Below are positions 11,618-22,011 of a stretch of DNA of 64,000 nt, piece after piece. The DNA is from Actinotalea alkalitolerans. GTDB taxonomy: Bacteria; Actinomycetota; Actinomycetes; Actinomycetales; Cellulomonadaceae. The stretch lies in NCBI RefSeq assembly GCF_023369855.1, contig NZ_JAMBPP010000003.1, positions 248,001-312,000 of the forward strand. The letters are read 5' to 3'. The notes beneath the pieces were generated by a model. That model was not told the origin of the DNA, did no database searches, and worked only from the letters and a program-made list of their open reading frames with translations. A program made the translations under genes and the position numbers. Each line of letters begins with the position of its first letter. Position 1 is the stretch's first letter.

Positions 11618-11698
11618 ATGCCGTCGGCTCGGCCGCTCGTCCTGGCGGGTGCCCTCGGCGCGCGCTGCGCCGCCCCGTGCTGCTGTCCCTGTCGCTAG
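11618..11698 (+). CDS. cysteine-rich leader peptide upstream of cysK-cysE
   Basis: A 26-codon ORF with GGAAGG 7 nt before its ATG. Five of the last ten residues are cysteine ([10 protein letters not shown]), using both TGC and TGT codons. It ends 184 nt before cysK on the same strand. Polycysteine leader ORFs that act as cysteine-responsive attenuators are established in mycobacteria. Here ribosomes would stall on the Cys codons when charged tRNA-Cys is scarce, changing the fold of the hairpins that begin one base behind the stop codon. Confidence 0.7.
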
Positions 11699-11882
11699 AG
11701 CGCTGGCACCTGCGCGACCGCTGCCCGTCGGGCGGCCGGCCGACGCCGTCAGCGCTCCTCGCCCCAGCCCTGCACGACCCGCCGTGCGGAATGCCCGGCA
11801 CCCGCGGACCGTTCACCCCGTGGAACCCCTGACCCGAACGCCAGCACGGCCGCGCCCGCGGCCCCGTGAGACGAGGACTGAC
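11699..11882 (+). promoter_or_regulatory. hairpin-rich leader between the cysteine ORF and cysK
   Basis: AGCGCTG (11699-11705), starting right after the leader stop, can pair with CAGCGCT (11750-11756) around an inner GCCC/GGGC stem. A second stem GCACG/CGTGC lies near 11780-11795. A third, GC-only hairpin at 11845-11868 (CACGG...CCGTG with GGCCGC/GCGGCC) ends 14 nt before the cysK ATG and could terminate transcription or hide its ribosome site. This is the layout expected of a translation-coupled attenuator. The exact switch is inferred. Confidence 0.5.
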
Positions 11883-13500: not shown

Positions 13501-14679
13501 GTGCCGTCCCCCGCGTCCAGCCACATCCTCCTCGCCGGGCTGGTCACGACCGCTGTGGGCTTCCTGAGCGCCTTCGCCGTGGTGCTGGCCGGGCTGCGCG
13601 CCGTGGGGGCGAGCCCCGCGCAGGCCGCATCGGGCCTGCTCGCGGTGACGGTCGGCATGGGCCTGGCCACGATCCTGCTCTCGGTGCGCACCCGCCTCCC
13701 GATCACGATCGCGTGGTCCACCCCGGGTGCCGCTCTTCTGGCCACCACGGGTGCGGTCGACGGCGGATGGCCCGCGGCGGTCGGCGCCTTCGCGGTGTGC
13801 GGGGTGCTGCTCGCGGTCGTGGGCCTGTGGGGACGCCTCGCTGCGCTGACGGCGCACATCCCGGCGACGATCGCGAGCGCGATGCTGGCCGGGGTGCTCC
13901 TGGACCTGTGCCTGGCGCCGGTGCGGGCGCTGGAGACCACCGGGTGGCTGGTCGCGCCGGTGATCGGGCTGTGGGTGGTGCTGCTGCGCCTGGCCCCGCG
14001 CTGGGCCGCCCCCGCGGGGCTGGTCGTCGCGACGGGCCTGGCCTTCACCTCGGCGGACGTGAGAGCCCTGCCGGCCGCGACCTGGCTCCCCACGCTCGAG
14101 TGGACCGCCCCGACCCTCGGGGTGGCGTCGGTGGTGTCGCTCGCGGTGCCCCTGTTCGTGGTGACGATGGCATCGCAGAACCTTCCGGGGGTGGCGGTGC
14201 TGGCCGGCTTCGGCTACGTCGCCCCGTGGCGCCGGGTGCTGCTGACCACAGGGGTGGGCACGATGCTGGTGGCGCCGTTCGGGGGGCACGCCCTGAACCT
14301 CGCCGCGATCAGCGCGGCGCTGGCCGCGGGGCCCGAGGCAGGTGCGGACCGTGGCGAGCGGTGGCGGGCCGCGACCACGGCGGGCGTCGGCTACGTCGCG
14401 GTGGGACTCGGCTCGGCCGGTGTGGCGGCCGTCGCCCTCGCGGCACCGGGGGGTCTCATCGAGGCGGCCGCGGGCCTGGCTCTCGTCGCGACCCTCGCGG
14501 CGTCGCTGCGCAGCGCCTTCTCGGTCGCGCCGCACGCCGTCGCGGCTGCGGCGACCTTCCTGGTCACGGTCTCCGGCGTCCGGCCGTGGGGGGTGGGCTC
14601 GGCGTTCTGGGGCCTCGTGGCCGGCGTGGTCCTGCTGGCGCTCACGAGATTGCTCCGACGGCCCCGTCTCGACATATGA
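13501..14679 (+). CDS. benzoate/H+ symporter BenE-family transporter
   Basis: Integral membrane protein of 392 aa with about 11-12 hydrophobic segments and the family landmarks AWSTPGAALL, ASQNLPGVAVL and GGHALNLAAI. The GTG at 13501 is taken because it fits a leaderless start and the homology begins directly behind it. The frame is open upstream through cysE in another reading frame. BenE-family proteins import aromatic acids such as benzoate in proteobacteria; in actinobacteria the substrate is usually unproven. Neighbours give no aromatic catabolism genes, so the substrate stays open. Confidence 0.85.
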   Translation: MPSPASSHILLAGLVTTAVGFLSAFAVVLAGLRAVGASPAQAASGLLAVTVGMGLATILLSVRTRLPITIAWSTPGAALLATTGAVDGGWPAAVGAFAVCGVLLAVVGLWGRLAALTAHIPATIASAMLAGVLLDLCLAPVRALETTGWLVAPVIGLWVVLLRLAPRWAAPAGLVVATGLAFTSADVRALPAATWLPTLEWTAPTLGVASVVSLAVPLFVVTMASQNLPGVAVLAGFGYVAPWRRVLLTTGVGTMLVAPFGGHALNLAAISAALAAGPEAGADRGERWRAATTAGVGYVAVGLGSAGVAAVALAAPGGLIEAAAGLALVATLAASLRSAFSVAPHAVAAAATFLVTVSGVRPWGVGSAFWGLVAGVVLLALTRLLRRPRLDI

Positions 14680-14699: not shown

Positions 14700-14729
14700 T
14701 TGCGCTGCCGCCCGGGATCGGGCTAATCT
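14700..14729 (+). promoter_or_regulatory. promoter of the sulfur/methionine operon
   Basis: TTGCGC (14700-14705), an 18-nt spacer and TAATCT (14724-14729). The predicted transcript starts near 14737 and carries the inverted repeat, the methionine-rich ORF and the attenuator-like hairpins. Confidence 0.45.
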
Positions 14730-14757
14730 CCGACCAGGTCCCACGGACTGACATCGC

Positions 14758-14778
14758 GCGTCTCAGATAGAGAGACGC
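14758..14778 (+). promoter_or_regulatory. inverted repeat before the methionine-rich leader ORF
   Basis: GCGTCTC-AGATAGA-GAGACGC has perfect 7-bp arms and a 7-nt loop. It sits in the predicted 5' UTR, ends about 7 nt before the AGGAGG ribosome site of the leader ORF, and could be an operator or an RNA hairpin. Confidence 0.45.
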
Positions 14779-14800
14779 CCACCAGGAGGGAGGCTGCGCC

Positions 14801-14881
14801 ATGAACCGTCGAACCGACGAGACGATGGCGCTGCCGATGATGCCCTCCCCGCGTGGCTGCATGCCACGCGCTGGCGCCTGA
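14801..14881 (+). CDS. methionine-rich leader peptide upstream of the Ssu-metY operon
   Basis: A 26-codon ORF behind AGGAGGGAGG, a near-consensus ribosome site. Five of 26 residues are Met (start, 9, 13, 14, 21), clustered as MALPMM and GCMP, and one is Cys. It ends 164 nt before the first operon gene. The operon includes O-acetylhomoserine sulfhydrylase, a homocysteine/methionine-forming enzyme, so ribosome pausing at Met codons when charged initiator or elongator Met-tRNA is scarce would be a sensible signal. This role is inferred from composition, position and the downstream hairpins. Confidence 0.55.
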   Translation: MNRRTDETMALPMMPSPRGCMPRAGA

Positions 14882-15045
14882 CGGCACGCTCCCCCGAGCA
14901 GAGGTCGTCCCGGTCCGATCACGGACCTAGGTAGCCAGCGGAGATCTCCCAGCCCCCGCCCGCACGCCCCGTGCCCGGCGTCCGGCGTGCCCCGTCCCTG
15001 GTGCCGCCGCGACACGACCGGTCGCGCCTGCCCCGAGGACCTCCC
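14882..15045 (+). promoter_or_regulatory. leader between the methionine ORF and the ABC transporter
   Basis: GGTCCG-ATCA-CGGACC forms a 6-bp hairpin at 14912-14927. GGCACGC (14883-14889), right behind the leader stop, is fully complementary to GCGTGCC (14985-14991), giving an alternative long-range fold. No SAM or cobalamin riboswitch core was recognised. Confidence 0.4.
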
Positions 15046-15885
15046 ATGGCGATCACCACGCCCACCGCCGTCCGCTCGCACCCGGCCCACCCGGTCTCGG
15101 TGCGTGGGGTCGGCCGCACCTTCGCCCCCCGCTCCCGCGGTGGCCACGCCCACCGCGTGCTCACCGGGGTGGACCTGGAGATCGGGGCCGGCGAGATCGT
15201 CGCCCTCATCGGCGCCTCAGGCTGCGGCAAGTCGACCCTGCTGCGCCAGGTCAGCGGGCTGGACGCGCCGAGCGAGGGCACGATCGTGATCGACGACGCC
15301 CCGGTGGCCGGGGTCGACCCGCGGTGTGCGGTCGCCTTCCAGGAGCCGCGGCTGCTGCCGTGGCGCACCCTGGCCCAGAACGTGGCCCTCGGCCTTCCGC
15401 GTGGGACCGACCGCTCCGCAGGCGACCGCCGGGTGCACGAGCTGCTCGAGCTCGTGGGACTTGGCCAGTGCACTCAGTACCGGCCCCGCCAGATCTCGGG
15501 CGGGATGGCCCAGCGCACCTCGCTCGCCCGTGCACTGGCCCGCAACCCCGGTGTGCTCGTCCTGGACGAGCCGTTCGGCGCCCTCGACGCGCTGACCCGG
15601 CTCAAGATGCAGGACCTCCTGCTCGAGGTCCACGCCGCCGAGCCCGCGACCGTCCTGCTCGTCACGCACGATGTCGACGAGGCCCTGTACCTCGCCGACC
15701 GTGTGGTCCTGCTCGGCCGCCCCGAGGGCTCCGGTCCCTACGAGCCCGCCACGGTGCGCACCGTGCTGACCGTCCCGGGAGCCCGCCCGCGGGACCGCGG
15801 CGACGCCGGTCTCGCGCACCTGAGGGCCCGGTTGCTCGACGGCCTGGGTGTCCCCAGTCACCACCAGTCCGCTCAGCACGCCTGA
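15046..15885 (+). CDS. ABC transporter ATP-binding protein, SsuB/NrtD/TauB type
   Basis: Cytosolic ATPase of 279 aa. Walker A is GASGCGKST, Q-loop FQEPRLLPW, signature ISGGMAQR, Walker B VLVLDEP and H-loop THDVDEA. This subfamily drives uptake of sulfonates, taurine or nitrate. The ATG at 15046 follows CCGAGGA; the frame is open upstream but without homology. First gene of the sulfur operon, followed by its lipoprotein and permease. Confidence 0.9.
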   Translation: MAITTPTAVRSHPAHPVSVRGVGRTFAPRSRGGHAHRVLTGVDLEIGAGEIVALIGASGCGKSTLLRQVSGLDAPSEGTIVIDDAPVAGVDPRCAVAFQEPRLLPWRTLAQNVALGLPRGTDRSAGDRRVHELLELVGLGQCTQYRPRQISGGMAQRTSLARALARNPGVLVLDEPFGALDALTRLKMQDLLLEVHAAEPATVLLVTHDVDEALYLADRVVLLGRPEGSGPYEPATVRTVLTVPGARPRDRGDAGLAHLRARLLDGLGVPSHHQSAQHA

Positions 15886-15995: not shown

Positions 15996-17051
15996 ATGAG
16001 GATCCGCACCGCACTGTCCGTCACCGCGGCCACCGCAGCCGCCGCCCTGATGCTCAGCGGCTGCGCGGCCGGCGAGGGCTCGCCCGTCGACGGCGACCCC
16101 GCTCCGGCTCCCGGCGCCACCACCACCGAGGAGGGCTGGAGCAGCGACACGCTCAACATCGACTTCGCGACCTACAACCCGCTGAGCCTGATCATCAAGG
16201 ACCAGGGCTGGCTCGAGGAGACCCTGGGCGAGGACGTCACCGTCACCTGGATCCAGTCGGCCGGCTCGAACAAGGCGAACGAGGCGCTGCGCGCGGGCGC
16301 GGTCGACGTGGGCTCGACGGCCGGCTCGGCCGCGCTGCTGGCCAAGGCGAACGGGTCGCCGATCCAGACCATCGGGATCTACACCCAGCCCGAGTGGGCA
16401 GCCATCGTGGTGCCGGAAGGATCGGACATCACCTCGGTCGAGGACCTCGCCGGCCGGTCCGTCGCGGCGACCAAGGGCACCGACCCCTACTTCTTCCTGC
16501 TGCAGAGCCTCGAGGAGCACGGGGTCGAGCTCGCCGACGTGGAGGTGCAGAACCTGCAGCACGCCGACGGTCGCGTGGCCCTGGAGAACGGCTCCGTCGA
16601 CGCCTGGTCCGGCCTCGACCCGATCATGGCCGACAGCGAGGTGAACGCCGGGTCGGAGCTCATCTACCGCAACATCGGCTTCAACACCTACGGGTTCCTC
16701 AACGCCACCGAGAGCTTCATCGAGCGCTCCCCGGACCTCGCGCAGCTGGTCCTCGACGCCTACGAGAAGGCTCGTGCCTGGGCGCTGGAGAACCCCGAGG
16801 AGACGGCTGCGATCCTCGCCGACGTCGCAGGCATCGAGCTGGCCATCGCCGAGAAGGTCATCCTCGAGCGCACCGTGATCGACCTGGACGTCGTCCCGGG
16901 CGACGCCCAGCGTGAGGTCCTCGAGGTCGTCGGACCGATCTTCGTGGAGTCCGGCGACGTCCAGTCACAGGACGCGATCGACCAGGCCCTGGAGAGCCTC
17001 TTCGAGGACAGCTTCGCCACGGCAGCCGACCCGGCCAACATCACCGACTGA
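15996..17051 (+). CDS. ABC transporter substrate-binding lipoprotein, SsuA type
   Basis: Exported solute-binding protein of 351 aa. The signal peptide ends in lipobox LSGC with the lipidated Cys23. A Ser/Thr/Pro-rich linker and a two-lobed periplasmic-binding fold follow, with SAGSNKANEALRAGAVDVG and TKGTDPYFFLLQSL, typical of aliphatic sulfonate-binding proteins. ATG 15996 is preceded by GAGAGG. Bound ligand is not readable from sequence: sulfonates are typical, but no FMNH2-dependent sulfonate monooxygenase lies in the window. Confidence 0.9.
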   Translation: MRIRTALSVTAATAAAALMLSGCAAGEGSPVDGDPAPAPGATTTEEGWSSDTLNIDFATYNPLSLIIKDQGWLEETLGEDVTVTWIQSAGSNKANEALRAGAVDVGSTAGSAALLAKANGSPIQTIGIYTQPEWAAIVVPEGSDITSVEDLAGRSVAATKGTDPYFFLLQSLEEHGVELADVEVQNLQHADGRVALENGSVDAWSGLDPIMADSEVNAGSELIYRNIGFNTYGFLNATESFIERSPDLAQLVLDAYEKARAWALENPEETAAILADVAGIELAIAEKVILERTVIDLDVVPGDAQREVLEVVGPIFVESGDVQSQDAIDQALESLFEDSFATAADPANITD

Positions 17052-17115: not shown

Positions 17116-18033
17116 ATGACGATCCCAGGGACCATCGGGACCGGACCCGTCGTCGACAAGGACGGCAATCCCCTGCGGTCCCTGAACCACGTCGACTCCC
17201 GGGCGGACGACCCGTCCGCCCGGGAGTCGACCGGAACGTCGGACCCACTGGCGCCCGACGTCCGACGGCGTGGGGCCCTGCTGGACCACGGTTGGGTGCG
17301 TGGTGCGCTCGGCACCGTCGTGCCGTTGCTGGTGCTCCTCGTGTGGCACGTGACGACCACGTCCGGCCTGATACCCCCTTACCGGTTGCCCTCGCCGCAG
17401 AGCGTCGTGCTCGCGGCGGCCGACCTGCTCGAGCGCGGCGACCTCCTGCCCTACATCCACATCTCCACCCAGCGTGTCCTCATCGGCTTCGCCATCGGTG
17501 CCGTCCTCGGTCTGGTCCTCGGAGCGGTCGTCGGCCTGTCCCGGCTCGGTGACGTCCTGCTGACCACGACGTTCAGCGGGCTCCGTGCCGTCCCGTCGCT
17601 CGCCTGGATCCCGCTGCTGATCATCTGGCTGCAGTACGGCGAGGAGTCCAAGATCACGCTGATCGCCATCGGGGCCTTCTTCCCGGTCTACACGACCGTC
17701 GCCTCGGCCCTGCGGCACGTCGACCCGCACCTGGTCGAGGCCGGGCGCGCGTACGGCCTGCGGGGCGCGGCCCTCCTCGGACGCGTCCAGCTGCCAGCAG
17801 CCACCCCCGCTGTGGTCTCGGGTCTGCGCCTCGCCCTGGCCCAGGCCTGGCTGTTCCTGGTCGCGGCCGAGCTGCTCGGAGCCTCCAAGGGACTGGGGTT
17901 CCTGCTGACCGACTCGCAGAACAACGGCCGGGTCGACCGCATCCTGCTCGCGATCGTCCTGCTTGCGGTGCTCGGCAAGAGCACAGACGCCCTGATCGGC
18001 GTCGCGGAGAAGCGGCTGGCCCGCCGGTGGTAG
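17116..18033 (+). CDS. ABC transporter permease, SsuC type
   Basis: Membrane subunit of 305 aa with about six helices after a polar N-terminal extension of some 60 residues. The EAA loop that contacts the ATPase reads EAGRAYGLRGAALLGRVQLP. GAGGAG 6 nt before the ATG at 17116 decides the start; an in-frame ATG at 17071 lacks this. Its end overlaps the next gene by 7 nt. Confidence 0.9.
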   Translation: MTIPGTIGTGPVVDKDGNPLRSLNHVDSRADDPSARESTGTSDPLAPDVRRRGALLDHGWVRGALGTVVPLLVLLVWHVTTTSGLIPPYRLPSPQSVVLAAADLLERGDLLPYIHISTQRVLIGFAIGAVLGLVLGAVVGLSRLGDVLLTTTFSGLRAVPSLAWIPLLIIWLQYGEESKITLIAIGAFFPVYTTVASALRHVDPHLVEAGRAYGLRGAALLGRVQLPAATPAVVSGLRLALAQAWLFLVAAELLGASKGLGFLLTDSQNNGRVDRILLAIVLLAVLGKSTDALIGVAEKRLARRW

Positions 18034-20096
18034 GCACCACCGCGACGCCGCGCAGCACGGCGATCAGCACCCTGCAGACCGACGACAGGGTCTTCCCGCC
18101 CGCCGCCGGCGGCACGTGGAACGTCGGCCCGGCCGACCACGCGCGCCTGCACGCCGAGGCCGACGCCGACCACGTCGCGTTCTGGGAGCGTGCCGCCGAG
18201 CGGCTCGAGTGGGCCGAGCCGTGGCACACCGCCCACACCTGGTCGCCCAGCGTGCCCGACCCCGAGGACCCCGAACGGCTCACTGTGCCCGTCGCGCAGT
18301 GGTTCGCGGGCGGCAGGCTCAACGTCGCCGTCAACTGCGTGGACCGGCACGTCACGGCAGGCCGGGGAGACAAGGTCGCGCTGCACTTCGAGGGTGAGCC
18401 CGGCGACCGCCGCTCCTACACCTACGCCGAGCTCCAACGCGAGGTCTCGCGAGCCGCCAACGCGCTCACCGACCTGGGCGTCGAGAAGGGCGACCGGGTG
18501 GTGGTCTACCTCCCCGTGCTGCCCGAGACCGTCATCATCACCCTGGCGATCGCCCGCATCGGAGCCATCCACTCGCTGGTCTTCGGCGGCTTCTCGGCCG
18601 AGGCGGTCCGCTTCCGGGTCCAGGACACCGGCGCCAAGCTGCTGGTCACCTCCGACGGGCAGCACCGGCGCGGCCGCGCCGTGGCGACCAAGGACGCCGC
18701 GGACGAGGCCGTCGCCGGCCTGGACCACGTCGAGCACGTGCTCGTGGTCCGTCGTACCGGCGAGGCCACCCCGGACGTGCCGTGGACCCCCGGGCGTGAC
18801 GTGTGGTGGCACGAGGTCGTCGACACCGCCGAGGACCACCACGAGGCGCAGGCCTTCGACGCCGAGACCCCCCTGTTCATCATCTACACCTCGGGGACGA
18901 CCGGGAAGCCCAAGGGGTTGGTGCACACCAGCGGGGGCTACCTCACCCAGGCGTCGTGGACGCACTGGGCGCACTTCGACGCACGCGAGGACGACGTCCA
19001 CTGGTGCACCGCGGACCTCGCCTGGGTCACCGCGCACACCTACGAGATCTACGGGCCGCTCTCCAACGGGATCACCCAGGTGATCTACGAGGGCACGCCG
19101 AGCACCCCGCACCCAGGGCGTCACTTCGAGATCATCGAGCGGTACGGCGTCACCACGTACTACACGGCCCCGACCCTGATCCGGACCTTCATGACCTGGT
19201 TCCCGGACGGGCTGCCCGCGACCCACGACCTGTCGACGCTGCGGCTGCTCGGCACCGTCGGCGAGTCGATCAACCCCGAGGCCTGGGTGTGGTTCCACGA
19301 GCAGGTCGGCGGCGGTCGCGCCCCGATCGTGGACACCTGGTGGCAGTCCGAGACCGGCGCCACGATGATCGCTCCGCTTCCTGGTGTCACCACCCTCAAG
19401 CCCGGATCAGCGACCCGCGCCCTGCCCGGCATCTCGGTCAAGGTGGTCGACGAGGCCGGCGGGCAGGTGCCGTTCGGCGGCGGTGGCTTCCTGGTGGTCG
19501 ACCGCACCTGGCCCGCGATGGCCCGCACCATCTGGAACGACCCCGAGCGCTACCGCGACGCCTACTGGTCCCGGTACGCCGAGCAGGGGTACTTCTTCGC
19601 CGGTGACGGCGCACGGTTCGACGTCGACGGCGACATCTGGCTCCTGGGCCGGGTCGACGACGTCATCAACGTCTCAGGTCACCGGCTCTCGACCATCGAG
19701 ATCGAGTCGGCCCTGGTCTCCCACCCGCTGGTCGGTGAGGCGGGGGTCACCGGCATCGACGACCCGACGACCGGGCAGGCGATCGCGGCGTTCGTGATCC
19801 CCGCCCGCGCCCCCGAGCACGCCGACGACGTCGAGGCGTGGGTCGCCCACGCCCGTGAGATCGGCGAGACCCTGCGCGCCCACGTCGCCCGCGAGATCGG
19901 CCCGATCGCCAAGCCGCGGGAGGTCGTGGTCGTCCCCGACCTGCCCAAGACACGCTCGGGGAAGATCATGCGCCGGTTGCTGGCCGACCTCGTCGCCGAA
20001 AGAGATCTGGGCGACGTGACATCACTTCAGGACGTTACGGCGTTGCACCGGATCAAGGCCGTCCTGGCCGCCCGTCAGAAGGAGACCACGCCGTGA
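18027..20096 (+). CDS. acetate--CoA ligase (AMP-forming acyl-CoA synthetase)
   Basis: Enzyme of 689 aa that activates a short carboxylic acid, most likely acetate, through an acyl-AMP. The motifs are the P-loop-like YTSGTTGKPKG, the acetyl-CoA-synthetase motif WWQSETG and the C-terminal acetylatable Lys646 in SGKIMRR. Trp in the WWQ region fits small acyl substrates. The GTG at 18027 overlaps the permease stop, and metY overlaps its end by 4 nt, so it is embedded in the sulfur operon. Possible job there: recycle acetate released by O-acetylhomoserine and O-acetylserine sulfhydrylation. That role is inferred from position. Confidence 0.88.
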   Translation: MVGTTATPRSTAISTLQTDDRVFPPAAGGTWNVGPADHARLHAEADADHVAFWERAAERLEWAEPWHTAHTWSPSVPDPEDPERLTVPVAQWFAGGRLNVAVNCVDRHVTAGRGDKVALHFEGEPGDRRSYTYAELQREVSRAANALTDLGVEKGDRVVVYLPVLPETVIITLAIARIGAIHSLVFGGFSAEAVRFRVQDTGAKLLVTSDGQHRRGRAVATKDAADEAVAGLDHVEHVLVVRRTGEATPDVPWTPGRDVWWHEVVDTAEDHHEAQAFDAETPLFIIYTSGTTGKPKGLVHTSGGYLTQASWTHWAHFDAREDDVHWCTADLAWVTAHTYEIYGPLSNGITQVIYEGTPSTPHPGRHFEIIERYGVTTYYTAPTLIRTFMTWFPDGLPATHDLSTLRLLGTVGESINPEAWVWFHEQVGGGRAPIVDTWWQSETGATMIAPLPGVTTLKPGSATRALPGISVKVVDEAGGQVPFGGGGFLVVDRTWPAMARTIWNDPERYRDAYWSRYAEQGYFFAGDGARFDVDGDIWLLGRVDDVINVSGHRLSTIEIESALVSHPLVGEAGVTGIDDPTTGQAIAAFVIPARAPEHADDVEAWVAHAREIGETLRAHVAREIGPIAKPREVVVVPDLPKTRSGKIMRRLLADLVAERDLGDVTSLQDVTALHRIKAVLAARQKETTP

Positions 20097-21457
20097 CCGA
20101 CCGCCAGTGGGGTTTCCGCACCCGCGCCCTGCACGCCGGGGGCGTCCCCGACGCCACCACCGGCGCGCGCGCCGTGCCGATCTACCAGACCACGAGCTTC
20201 GTCTTCACCGACACGGCCGACGCCGCGAACCTCTTCGCCCTGCAGAAGTACGGCAACATCTACTCGCGGATCGGCAACCCCACGGTCGCTGCCCTCGAAG
20301 AACGCATCGCCTCGCTCGAGGGTGGGATCGGTGCGGTCGCGACCGCCTCGGGCATGTCGGCGGAGTTCATCACCTTTGCCGCACTGGTCGGGGCGGGTGA
20401 CCACGTCGTCGCCGCGGCCTCGCTGTACGGAGGGACCGTCACCCAGCTCGACGTGACCCTGCGCCGCTTCGGTGTGCAGACCACGTTCGTGGCGGGCACC
20501 GACCCGGCCGACTACGCGGCGGCGATCCGGCCCGAGACCAAGGTGGTCTACGCCGAGGTGATCGCCAACCCCTCGGGAGAGATCACCGACCTCGCCGGGC
20601 TGGCCGAGGTGGCCCACGCCGCCGGCGTCCCGCTGGTCGTCGACGCCACGCTGGCCACCCCCTACCTGGTGCGGCCCATCGAGCACGGGGCCGACATCGT
20701 GATCCACTCGGCGACGAAGTTCCTGGGTGGGCACGGCACCACCCTGGGTGGGGTCGTGGTCGAGAGCGGCCGCTTCGACTGGGGCAACGGCCGCTTCCCC
20801 CAGATGACCGAGCCCGTCGCGTCCTACGGCGGGGTCAGCTGGTGGGAGAACTTCGGCGAGTACGGCTTCCTGACCAAGCTGCGCTCCGAGCAGCTCCGCG
20901 ACATCGGCCCTGCCCTTCCCGCGCAGTCCGCCTTCCAGCTGCTCCAGGGCGTCGAGACGCTCCCGCAGAGGATGGACGCGCACCTGGCCAACGCCCGCGT
21001 CGTGGCGCAGTGGCTCGAGGACGACCCCCGCGTCGGCTACGTCAACTGGGCCGGCCTGCCCTCCCACCCGCACCACGAGCGGGCGATCAGGTACCTGCCG
21101 CAGGGACCGGGGGCCGTGTTCGCCTTCGGGCTGAACGCCACCGACGACCGCAGCGGGCGCGAGGTCGGTCGGCGGTTCATCGAGTCGGTCCAGCTCGCGA
21201 GCCACCTGGCCAACGTGGGCGACTCCCGCACGCTCGTGCTGCACCCGGCGTCCACGACCCACCAGCAGCTCTCCGCGGAGCAGCTCGCGGCCGGTGGTGT
21301 CGCCGAGGACCTGGTGCGCATCAGCGTGGGACTGGAGGACGTCGAGGACATCCTGTGGGACCTGGACCAAGCACTGACGGCGGCAGCTGGCCCGCCACCC
21401 GGATCCGCGGCCGCCCCGGCCGCACCGCGCACTGCCGACTCGGAGGTGACGGCATGA
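20093..21457 (+). CDS. metY: O-acetylhomoserine aminocarboxypropyltransferase (sulfhydrylase)
   Basis: PLP enzyme of 454 aa in the Cys/Met metabolism family. It replaces the acetoxy group of O-acetylhomoserine with sulfide to give homocysteine, or with methanethiol to give methionine. PLP lysine is Lys209 in SATKFLGGHGT, and YSRIGNPT is the family substrate loop. The longer insert after the PLP site (GRFDWGNGRFPQMTEP) is typical of MetY rather than MetB or MetZ. Start GTG overlaps the ligase stop and its own stop overlaps the next ATG, showing tight coupling. Confidence 0.93.
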   Translation: MTDRQWGFRTRALHAGGVPDATTGARAVPIYQTTSFVFTDTADAANLFALQKYGNIYSRIGNPTVAALEERIASLEGGIGAVATASGMSAEFITFAALVGAGDHVVAAASLYGGTVTQLDVTLRRFGVQTTFVAGTDPADYAAAIRPETKVVYAEVIANPSGEITDLAGLAEVAHAAGVPLVVDATLATPYLVRPIEHGADIVIHSATKFLGGHGTTLGGVVVESGRFDWGNGRFPQMTEPVASYGGVSWWENFGEYGFLTKLRSEQLRDIGPALPAQSAFQLLQGVETLPQRMDAHLANARVVAQWLEDDPRVGYVNWAGLPSHPHHERAIRYLPQGPGAVFAFGLNATDDRSGREVGRRFIESVQLASHLANVGDSRTLVLHPASTTHQQLSAEQLAAGGVAEDLVRISVGLEDVEDILWDLDQALTAAAGPPPGSAAAPAAPRTADSEVTA

Positions 21458-22011
21458 GCTCCGACGCCCTCGACCCGGTCACCGCAGGTGCCGCCTGCGC
21501 GGTGCCCGCCCCCACCGACACCGCTCGCGAACGCCGCATCTGGGTCGGCCCGAGCGCCCCCGAACGCCTCGACCTGCTGCGCCGGACACGATCGATCGCG
21601 ATCGTCGGTGCCTCGGCCAACGCCTCGCGGGCGAGCTACTTCGTGGCGACCTACCTGCTCTCCTCCTCGCCCTACGACGTCTACTTCGTCAACCCGCGGG
21701 CCACGCAGATCCTCGGGCGACCGGTCTACCCCTCCCTCGAGGCGCTGCCCGTGGTCCCCGACCTGGTCGACGTCTTCCGCCGTCACGACGACCTGCCGAC
21801 CGTGCTCGACGAGACCCTCGCGGTCGGCGCCAGGGCTCTGTGGCTGCAGCTCGGCTCGTGGCACGAGGAGGTCGCCCGCCGGGCTGAGGCCGCGGGGCTC
21901 GACGTCGTCATGGACCGCTGCGTGAAGATCGAGCACGCACGATTCCACGGCGGTCTGCACCTCGCAGGCTTCGACACCGGGGTGATCAGCTCGCGCCGAG
22001 CGCTGGGCTGA
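21454..22011 (+). CDS. CoA-binding (Rossmann) protein, YccU-like
   Basis: Small cytosolic protein of 185 aa with a single CoA-binding Rossmann domain. The phosphate loop is GASANASRASYF, followed by YFVNPRATQILGRPVYPSLEALP and a conserved DRCVKIEHAR near the end. Biochemical role unknown for the family. CGGAGG precedes the ATG, and the start overlaps the metY stop (ATGA). It is repeatedly found beside metY-type genes, so a sulfur or acyl-CoA link is likely but unproven. Confidence 0.85.
   Translation: MSSDALDPVTAGAACAVPAPTDTARERRIWVGPSAPERLDLLRRTRSIAIVGASANASRASYFVATYLLSSSPYDVYFVNPRATQILGRPVYPSLEALPVVPDLVDVFRRHDDLPTVLDETLAVGARALWLQLGSWHEEVARRAEAAGLDVVMDRCVKIEHARFHGGLHLAGFDTGVISSRRALG

Follow-up and report, generated by a model that had tools for sequence, protein, structure and literature searches.

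In attenuators of the trp and his type, the leader carries regulatory codons for the operon's own product, and the position of the ribosome decides how the RNA folds. Bacterial methionine genes are usually described under S-adenosylmethionine (SAM) riboswitches or repressors. Here we describe a short leader open reading frame (ORF) with several Met codons that precedes a sulfur operon (ssu-acs-metY) in Actinotalea alkalitolerans, family Cellulomonadaceae. It lies in a stretch of 64,000 nucleotides (nt), referred to below as the window (assembly GCF_023369855.1, contig NZ_JAMBPP010000003.1, positions 248,001 to 312,000). The closest described systems are leaders with Cys codons. In actinobacteria, including the species acnes, such ORFs have been reported before sulfur genes, among them cbs in B. 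longum (Seliverstov et al. 2005, PMC1262725); Rho was proposed there as the terminating factor in a prediction that the authors themselves termed weak, and for the Actinobacteria that it covered, the survey reported no RNA structure conserved ahead of methionine operons. The polycysteine short ORFs of mycobacteria, which are leaderless, answer to cysteine (Canestrari et al. 2020, cited in PMC9094748 and PMC13236596), and the uORFC-8-2 motif upstream of cysS in Rhodobacterales is described as a structured Cys leader (PMC8632094). From its codons, its conservation and its predicted RNA pairing, we put the probability at about 0.6 that the leader in the window is a ribosome-mediated attenuator of the ssu-acs-metY operon, one that would respond jointly to how much Met-tRNA and Cys-tRNA is charged.

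Codon content and conservation of the leader

The leader ORF (Table 1) contains five ATG codons, four of them internal (Met9, Met13, Met14 and Met21), and a single Cys codon, Cys20. It ends 164 nt before the ATG of the SsuB/TauB-like ATPase gene that opens the operon. Five Met codons in 26, a very strong ribosome site and an inverted repeat just before the ORF had been pointed out in an initial annotation made from the DNA letters, and all three are present, as is the homocysteine- or methionine-forming enzyme that it placed in the operon. Among the 36 ORFs of 15-40 amino acids that follow a Shine-Dalgarno (SD)-like word of at least five bases on either strand of the window, this is the only one with at least three internal Met. 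The leader ORF is real, and its richness in Met is unlikely to be due to chance.

Table 1. Features of the two sulfur leaders and of the metY operon in the window
Feature	Position	Strand	Remark
Cys leader ORF before cysK-cysE	11618..11698	+	5 Cys, no internal Met
P2-like pairing of the cysK leader, GAGCGCUG (11698-11705) with CAGCGCUC (11750-11757)	11698..11757	+	
Probable promoter TTGCGC-N18-TAATCT	14700..14729	+	sigma-70-like; by eye
Short inverted repeat GGTCC-CAC-GGACT	14737..14749	+	near expected transcript 5' end
Inverted repeat GTCTC-N7-GAGAC	14760..14776	+	hairpin of the 5' untranslated region, or operator
Shine-Dalgarno word of the leader ORF, AGGAGGGAGG	14784..14793	+	7 bases before the leader ORF
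Leader ORF, MNRRTDETMALPMMPSPRGCMPRAGA	14801..14881	+	26 codons
P1 hairpin GCGUGGC-UGCAU-GCCACGC	14851..14869	+	over codons Cys20-Met21
P2 5' strand, CGCUGGCGCCU	14869..14879	+	last sense codons and first stop-codon base
P3 hairpin GGUCCG-AUCA-CGGACC	14912..14927	+	inside the P2 loop
P2 3' strand, AGGUAGCCAGCG	14929..14940	+	
C-rich, G-poor spacer free of T runs	14941..15045	+	candidate Rho-loading region; C 0.51, G 0.30
Ribosome site of the first operon gene, GAGGACC	15035..15041	+	GAGGAC-like word before the start codon in the genus alignment
SsuB/TauB-like ABC ATPase, first operon gene	15046..15885	+	below the cut-offs of nitrate, sulfonate and taurine models
SsuA-family substrate-binding protein	15996..17051	+	TIGR01728, 209.5 bits, cut-off 163.5
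SsuC-like permease	17116..18033	+	best model SsuC, 178.5 bits, under its cut-off of 347
Acetate--CoA ligase	18027..20096	+	TIGR02188, 832 bits, cut-off 725
metY, O-acetylhomoserine sulfhydrylase	20093..21457	+	TIGR01326, 571 bits, cut-off 495
CoA-binding-like protein after metY	21454..22011	+	weak acetate--CoA ligase alpha matches

We use Actinotalea as a short label for the GTDB genus of the window genome, whose named relatives are called Actinotalea in five of seven cases and Cellulomonas in two. A search of 59 genomes for SsuB gave close orthologs in 15 of the 19 genus genomes, the window's own included, and all 15 carry a homologous leader at the orthologous place. Judged from the letters, each has an SD-like word before it, an open frame and a stop codon. 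The alignment of the 15 copies has the consensus MxxxxDxxMALPMMxSxCGCMPRAGA, in which Met21, Pro22 and Ala24-Gly25 are invariant. A covariance model built from these loci found one strong match in each of the same 15 genomes among 221 of the family; three further matches within the genus, and single ones in two genomes outside it, were marginal (E 0.0009 to 0.009). The remaining four genus genomes are without an SsuB match at E ≤ 1e-85, and the model matched none of three of them and the fourth (G007) marginally (E 0.009). The two matches outside the genus are L127 (genome G136) and L128 (G233), both with E of about 0.001.

Across the family, SsuB matched at E ≤ 1e-85 in 70 of 220 genomes, and the upstream DNA was readable in 66 (G126 and G082 had 66-68 bases of it, and the matches in G108 and G115 lie at contig starts). 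A Cys-bearing leader is present in 63 of these 66, one of them cut by a contig end; setting aside this one (L143) and L154, whose peptide is identical to that of L150, we tabulated 61 leaders. Six leader peptides searched against NCBIfam matched no family at an E limit of 10.

Of the 321 codons beyond codon 5 in the 15 Actinotalea leaders, 65 encode Met and 35 Cys. In the other 46 leaders the figures are 59 Met and 196 Cys out of 1162, counts that somewhat favour both amino acids since the script that chose the non-genus leaders ranked them by Cys, Met and SD. Outside Actinotalea, Cys outnumbers Met about threefold. Met occurs in 15 of 15 Actinotalea leaders and in 41 of the 46 others, Cys in all leaders of both sets, with up to seven per leader outside Actinotalea. 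Actinotalea copies have three to six internal Met and one to four Cys; the window copy, with four and one, lacks the run of Cys codons near the stop that is present in many relatives. Read in the two shifted frames, the Actinotalea leaders contain 0.0% and 0.0% Met (303 and 321 codons) and the other leaders 0.0% and 0.1%; for Cys, which reaches 16.2% in one frame of the genus set, shifted frames are a poor control. Conservation of the Met codons in relatives, the check that the initial annotation had named, is borne out by Met21 and by the overall Met content. Its proposal of a Met-codon attenuator stands in part: the leader does precede a metY operon and does conserve Met, but it is not purely a Met leader, Cys being present in 61 of 61. 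By codon content, the leader family is basically a cysteine leader, and the window copy is a Met-skewed version of it. The in-frame hexamer CGA-ATG (Arg-Met) appears in 15 of the 61 leaders, in some at the P1 loop (L002, L006, L007, L014, L015, L018, L020, L025, L141, L144, L153, L159, L170, L173 and L175).

A sister leader, which is the strongest control available within the genome itself, lies 3 kb upstream, before a cysK-cysE operon. Its amino acid of interest is Cys only, and the Cys run near the stop is present. With leaders picked by Cys and SD only, 30 stretches yielded 19 cysK leaders (the window and 18 relatives), which contain 72 Cys and one Met in 422 codons beyond codon 5. As for the other stretches, L235, L237 and L073 have no upstream DNA, L033 and L242-L244 showed no cysK, L002 and L003 were unturned and uninformative, and L229 and L230 were missed by the script, read by eye and kept outside the 19-leader counts. 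Fisher tests of Met in cysK versus metY leaders gave p values of 1e-24 (genus) and 3e-7 (the other 46 leaders), which overstate the difference because the sequences are related. In the 13 genus genomes with both leaders (L230 supplies the 13th pair), the metY leader has three to six internal Met; the cysK leader lacks them in 12 genomes and has one in the remaining pair, L003/L035. By eye, the cysK leaders of L229 and L230 may themselves be leaderless, with a TAGCGT-like -10 close before the start codon, like the mycobacterial polycysteine ORFs.

Conserved helices and a predicted switch

Three helices, P1 to P3, were derived from the 15 genus loci. In P1, six pairs were counted, 98.9% of the cells are paired, and two pairs have changed on both sides. 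P2 joins the last sense codons to a partner strand about 50 nt downstream and has 93.9% of its cells paired and one pair changed on both sides; the corresponding values for P3 are 88.9% and one. Taken together, 93.8% of the cells are paired, compared with 27.5-45.1% when the 3' partners are slid. The covariation score was 0.117 versus 0.064 after shuffling (0/500), a result that is no probability and that was obtained on a structure derived from the same 15 sequences. In the Cellulomonas group (19 loci), P2 is found at the same place in other letters (GCRCCGGC with GCCGGUGC), and in L153 and L173 it reaches 13 contiguous pairs. The initial annotation had described a hairpin after the ORF, which corresponds to P1, and a long-range alternative pairing. 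The long-range pairing exists as P2, but it is not an alternative: P1 and P2 lie side by side, share one base in the window copy and can coexist. P2 would instead be excluded by a ribosome at the end of the leader.

The cysK leader has a helix of the same kind, which starts at the stop codon. Its GAGCGCUGG is invariant in 19 of 19 leaders; the partner is CCAGCGCUC in 16, UCAGCGCUC in the window (with a G-U pair) and ACAGCGCUC in L032, and L040 has one mismatch. In L035 the stop codon has changed and the frame runs on, with both P2 strands kept, and L230 shows, by eye, a paired change of GAGCGCCGG with CCGGCGCUC. A genome-wide search for further copies through the P2 pattern was uninformative, as a reversed-pattern control mostly scored higher. 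A Cys-only cysK leader and a Met/Cys metY leader of the same plan suggest that neighbouring sulfur operons carry attenuators of one plan and different codon content.

In the following model for the metY leader, four elements are inferred: that the ribosome stalls, which way the control runs, that Met is sensed, and that Rho acts. With Met and Cys plentiful, the ribosome would reach the leader stop and cover the last sense codons, which are the 5' strand of P2; by geometry, a ribosome at the stop codon would mask this strand in the metY and the cysK leader alike. With P2 blocked, and P3 inside it, the operon would be switched off at an early point, and the likeliest agent is Rho, working on the C-rich stretch of RNA beyond the leader. 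A shortage of Met or Cys would stall the ribosome at Met9, Met13, Met14 or the Cys20-Met21 pair. A stall at Met9-14 would leave P1 and P2 free, one at Cys20-Met21 would remove P1 and leave most of P2, and upon either stall P2/P3 would form and transcription or expression would continue. In a more specific version, to which we give about even odds, the leader acts as an OR gate: stalling at the Met codons or at the Cys-Met pair would let the same P2 form. The leader would then be one of two neighbouring attenuators of a single plan, each with codons that suit its operon (only Cys in the case of cysKE, both Met and Cys in that of ssu-metY), and the Actinotalea sensor would have drifted from cysteine to methionine with the RNA switch unchanged.

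No terminator-like site was found between positions 14600 and 15100, where the longest T run after the leader is 1. The C/G value of the spacer after P2 is reached by only 1.0% of 105-nt windows on both strands of the 64 kb. After P2, C/G is above 1.5 in 50 of 55 loci, 14 of the 15 from the genus among them; two of 57 loci were omitted for their short spacers. Since RNA that is C-rich and G-poor follows the leader and a U-tract terminator is missing, Rho is favoured, and we propose Rho-dependent termination as the output step with low certainty. Masking of the downstream ribosome site by the state of the leader was considered and rejected: in genus folding, mean access to that site is 0.43 with the leader free, 0.44 with a Cys stall and 0.41 with the ribosome at the stop.

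Counter-evidence and rival explanations

Several results weigh against a Met- and Cys-reading attenuator that works through P2. Single GC-rich sequences give P2 duplex energies that are unexceptional next to dinucleotide-shuffled downstream RNA (mean z about -0.5); most do not stand out significantly, only 10 of 57 lying at or below 5 of 100 shuffles, and shuffles often match the P2 helix lengths. In the window, P2 comprises seven contiguous pairs, and its stretch has a rival match of equal length. Twelve of 57 leaders, mostly ending in Ala-Ala, are by eye without P2 at this place. Over the genus, the P2 value in folding averaged 0.54 with the leader free and 0.33 when a Cys stall was imposed, with near-zero free values in two of the 15 loci (L007 and L014); the averages in 37 further family loci were 0.38 and 0.23, and the value of 0 with the ribosome at the stop follows by construction. 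By geometry, part of the P2 5' strand would also be covered once Cys20 occupies the ribosomal A site. Downstream, no conserved off-state hairpin emerged in Actinotalea, where the score of -10.3 was no better than that of column shuffles (mean -11.1); for the 19 Cellulomonas loci a candidate scored -41.2 versus a shuffle mean of -32.3 (standard deviation 3.5, lowest of 60 shuffles -40.2), and for the core clade -50.6 versus -40.6 (lowest shuffle -52.7). No SD-led leader was found in L023, L140 and L151, all of genus g7, though the operon is kept there. Since Cys is no less universal in these leaders than Met, the role of Met may be secondary. Finally, metY is present in the operon in all 20 further family loci checked, which fails to explain why leaders are Met-rich only in Actinotalea, and we rejected the presence of metY as the cause. 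The case for P2 as a putative regulatory helix rests on its conservation.

The leading competing explanation is a cysteine-only attenuator, with the Cys codon in the P1 loop as the sensor and the Met codons either incidental or serving the RNA through the AU of AUG, on the 3' side of that loop. Cys in all 61 tabulated leaders, the Cys-only cysK leader of the same plan and the Cys leaders known in Actinobacteria (PMC1262725) all agree with it, and in 42 non-Actinotalea leaders 25 of 56 Met do lie within the last nine codons, near P1. In Actinotalea, however, 49 of 65 Met lie upstream of the last nine codons, and the window copy keeps a single Cys against four internal Met. The cysK leaders do without Met (1 in 422 codons), and by eye some Cellulomonas loci, L134 among them, seem to fold P1 even though they have no AUG there. 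We judge this explanation rather unlikely, if a serious one. Far less probable is an arrest peptide, in which the nascent C-terminal MPRAGA would itself halt the ribosome upon sensing a small molecule, for example SAM or methionine. The invariant Met21-Pro22 and Ala24-Gly25 of the 15 genus copies would suit such a peptide, as would an x-[A/T]-G-x ending that recurs, by eye, in many family leaders. But the endings vary outside the genus, and the conserved C-terminal codons are also the P2 5' strand; in Cellulomonas these codons change together with the P2 partner, so RNA pairing explains their conservation.

Control could also lie upstream of the ORF, with a transcription factor binding GTCTC-N7-GAGAC and the leader a mere expression tuner or a small protein, which we consider improbable. 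A consensus promoter scan called 0 promoters, the probable one of Table 1 included; in the alignment of the 15 loci, a TAnnnT resembling its -10 is seen again, and most of the alignment has a TTG-like -35. Repeats resembling GGTCC-CAC-GGACT are present, by eye, in most relatives. The same holds for GTCTC-N7-GAGAC, which is recognisable in most and imperfect in some, and GTCTC with a degraded second half persists, by eye, in the three loci without an SD-led leader; both observations speak for a bound factor. Against it, the repeat sits downstream of the expected start site, its spacers vary from 5 to 7 nt with paired changes (by eye), and the window genome holds 12 exact sites compared with 2 for a reversed control, so that the repeat is not specific to this locus. 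The codons and helices of the leader are, moreover, under constraint of their own. A search of the window for riboswitches and T-boxes found none: Rfam at gathering score matched two tRNAs only across its whole length, with no SAM riboswitch, T-box or other curated family.

The operon and known leader systems

Gene calls in the operon rest on NCBIfam models and their cut-offs (Table 1). The order SsuA, SsuC, metY and CoA-binding-like gene is kept in 20 of 20 further family loci, and 16 of them have acetate--CoA ligase between SsuC and metY. In L254 and L255, from the same genomes as L023 and L140, acetate--CoA ligase is missing too. The window genome encodes three more strong members of PF01053 (the MetY/MetB superfamily). 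One of these genes (L178, G000 contig 33) adjoins a gene that, by look alone, resembles metX (homoserine O-acetyltransferase), and an Rfam scan of that locus gave no match.

An Rfam scan of 48 further loci, a part of those fetched, revealed a tandem of two different sulfur sensors in L022 (1173-1262) and L027 (1099-1191), both order-level relatives: a SAM riboswitch (RF00162) stands directly before the Cys leader of the same ABC operon. In Kocuria rosea (L056, 5853-5956), a SAM riboswitch lies just upstream of the same ABC operon, and the script found no leader ORF there. Among the matches listed for open-licence papers, no title or opening of an abstract named a bacterial leader with Met as the regulatory codon, and none concerned Cellulomonadaceae.

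The leader in the window resembles the Cys leaders of Seliverstov et al. in being a short ORF with Cys codons and sulfur genes downstream, without an intrinsic terminator and with Rho as the suggested factor; as those leaders are described, it differs from them in that the window copy is dominated by Met with one Cys and in its three conserved helices (PMC1262725). The mycobacterial polycysteine ORFs, too, are leader ORFs before operons, and they respond to cysteine (PMC9094748, PMC13236596). They are reported as leaderless, whereas the window leader is SD-led (AGGAGGGAGG), and they are described as acting by translation attenuation (PMC13236596), whereas folding here shows unchanged access to the downstream ribosome site. 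With uORFC-8-2 the leader shares Cys codons within the stem of a structured leader; that motif, in another phylum and before another gene, is reported to have an intrinsic terminator with a U-run, and none is present here (PMC8632094).

Actinobacterial Cys leaders have been known for twenty years; the window adds a Met-enriched version, probably sensing both amino acids. If this is true, a Met plus Cys leader beside a Cys-only sister would show how an RNA switch is retuned to a new amino acid by its codons alone. The actinobacterial Cys leaders also gain a defined, covarying RNA structure in one family. As in trp- and his-type attenuators, codons of the end product are enriched (65 Met and 35 Cys in 321, before an operon encoding MetY), and as in ribosome-mediated attenuators generally, a conserved helix, P2, overlaps the last codons, so that by geometry its formation would depend on the position of the ribosome. 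Unlike the trp and his systems, the locus shows no terminator/antiterminator pair with a U-tract, and its leader encodes two sulfur amino acids together.
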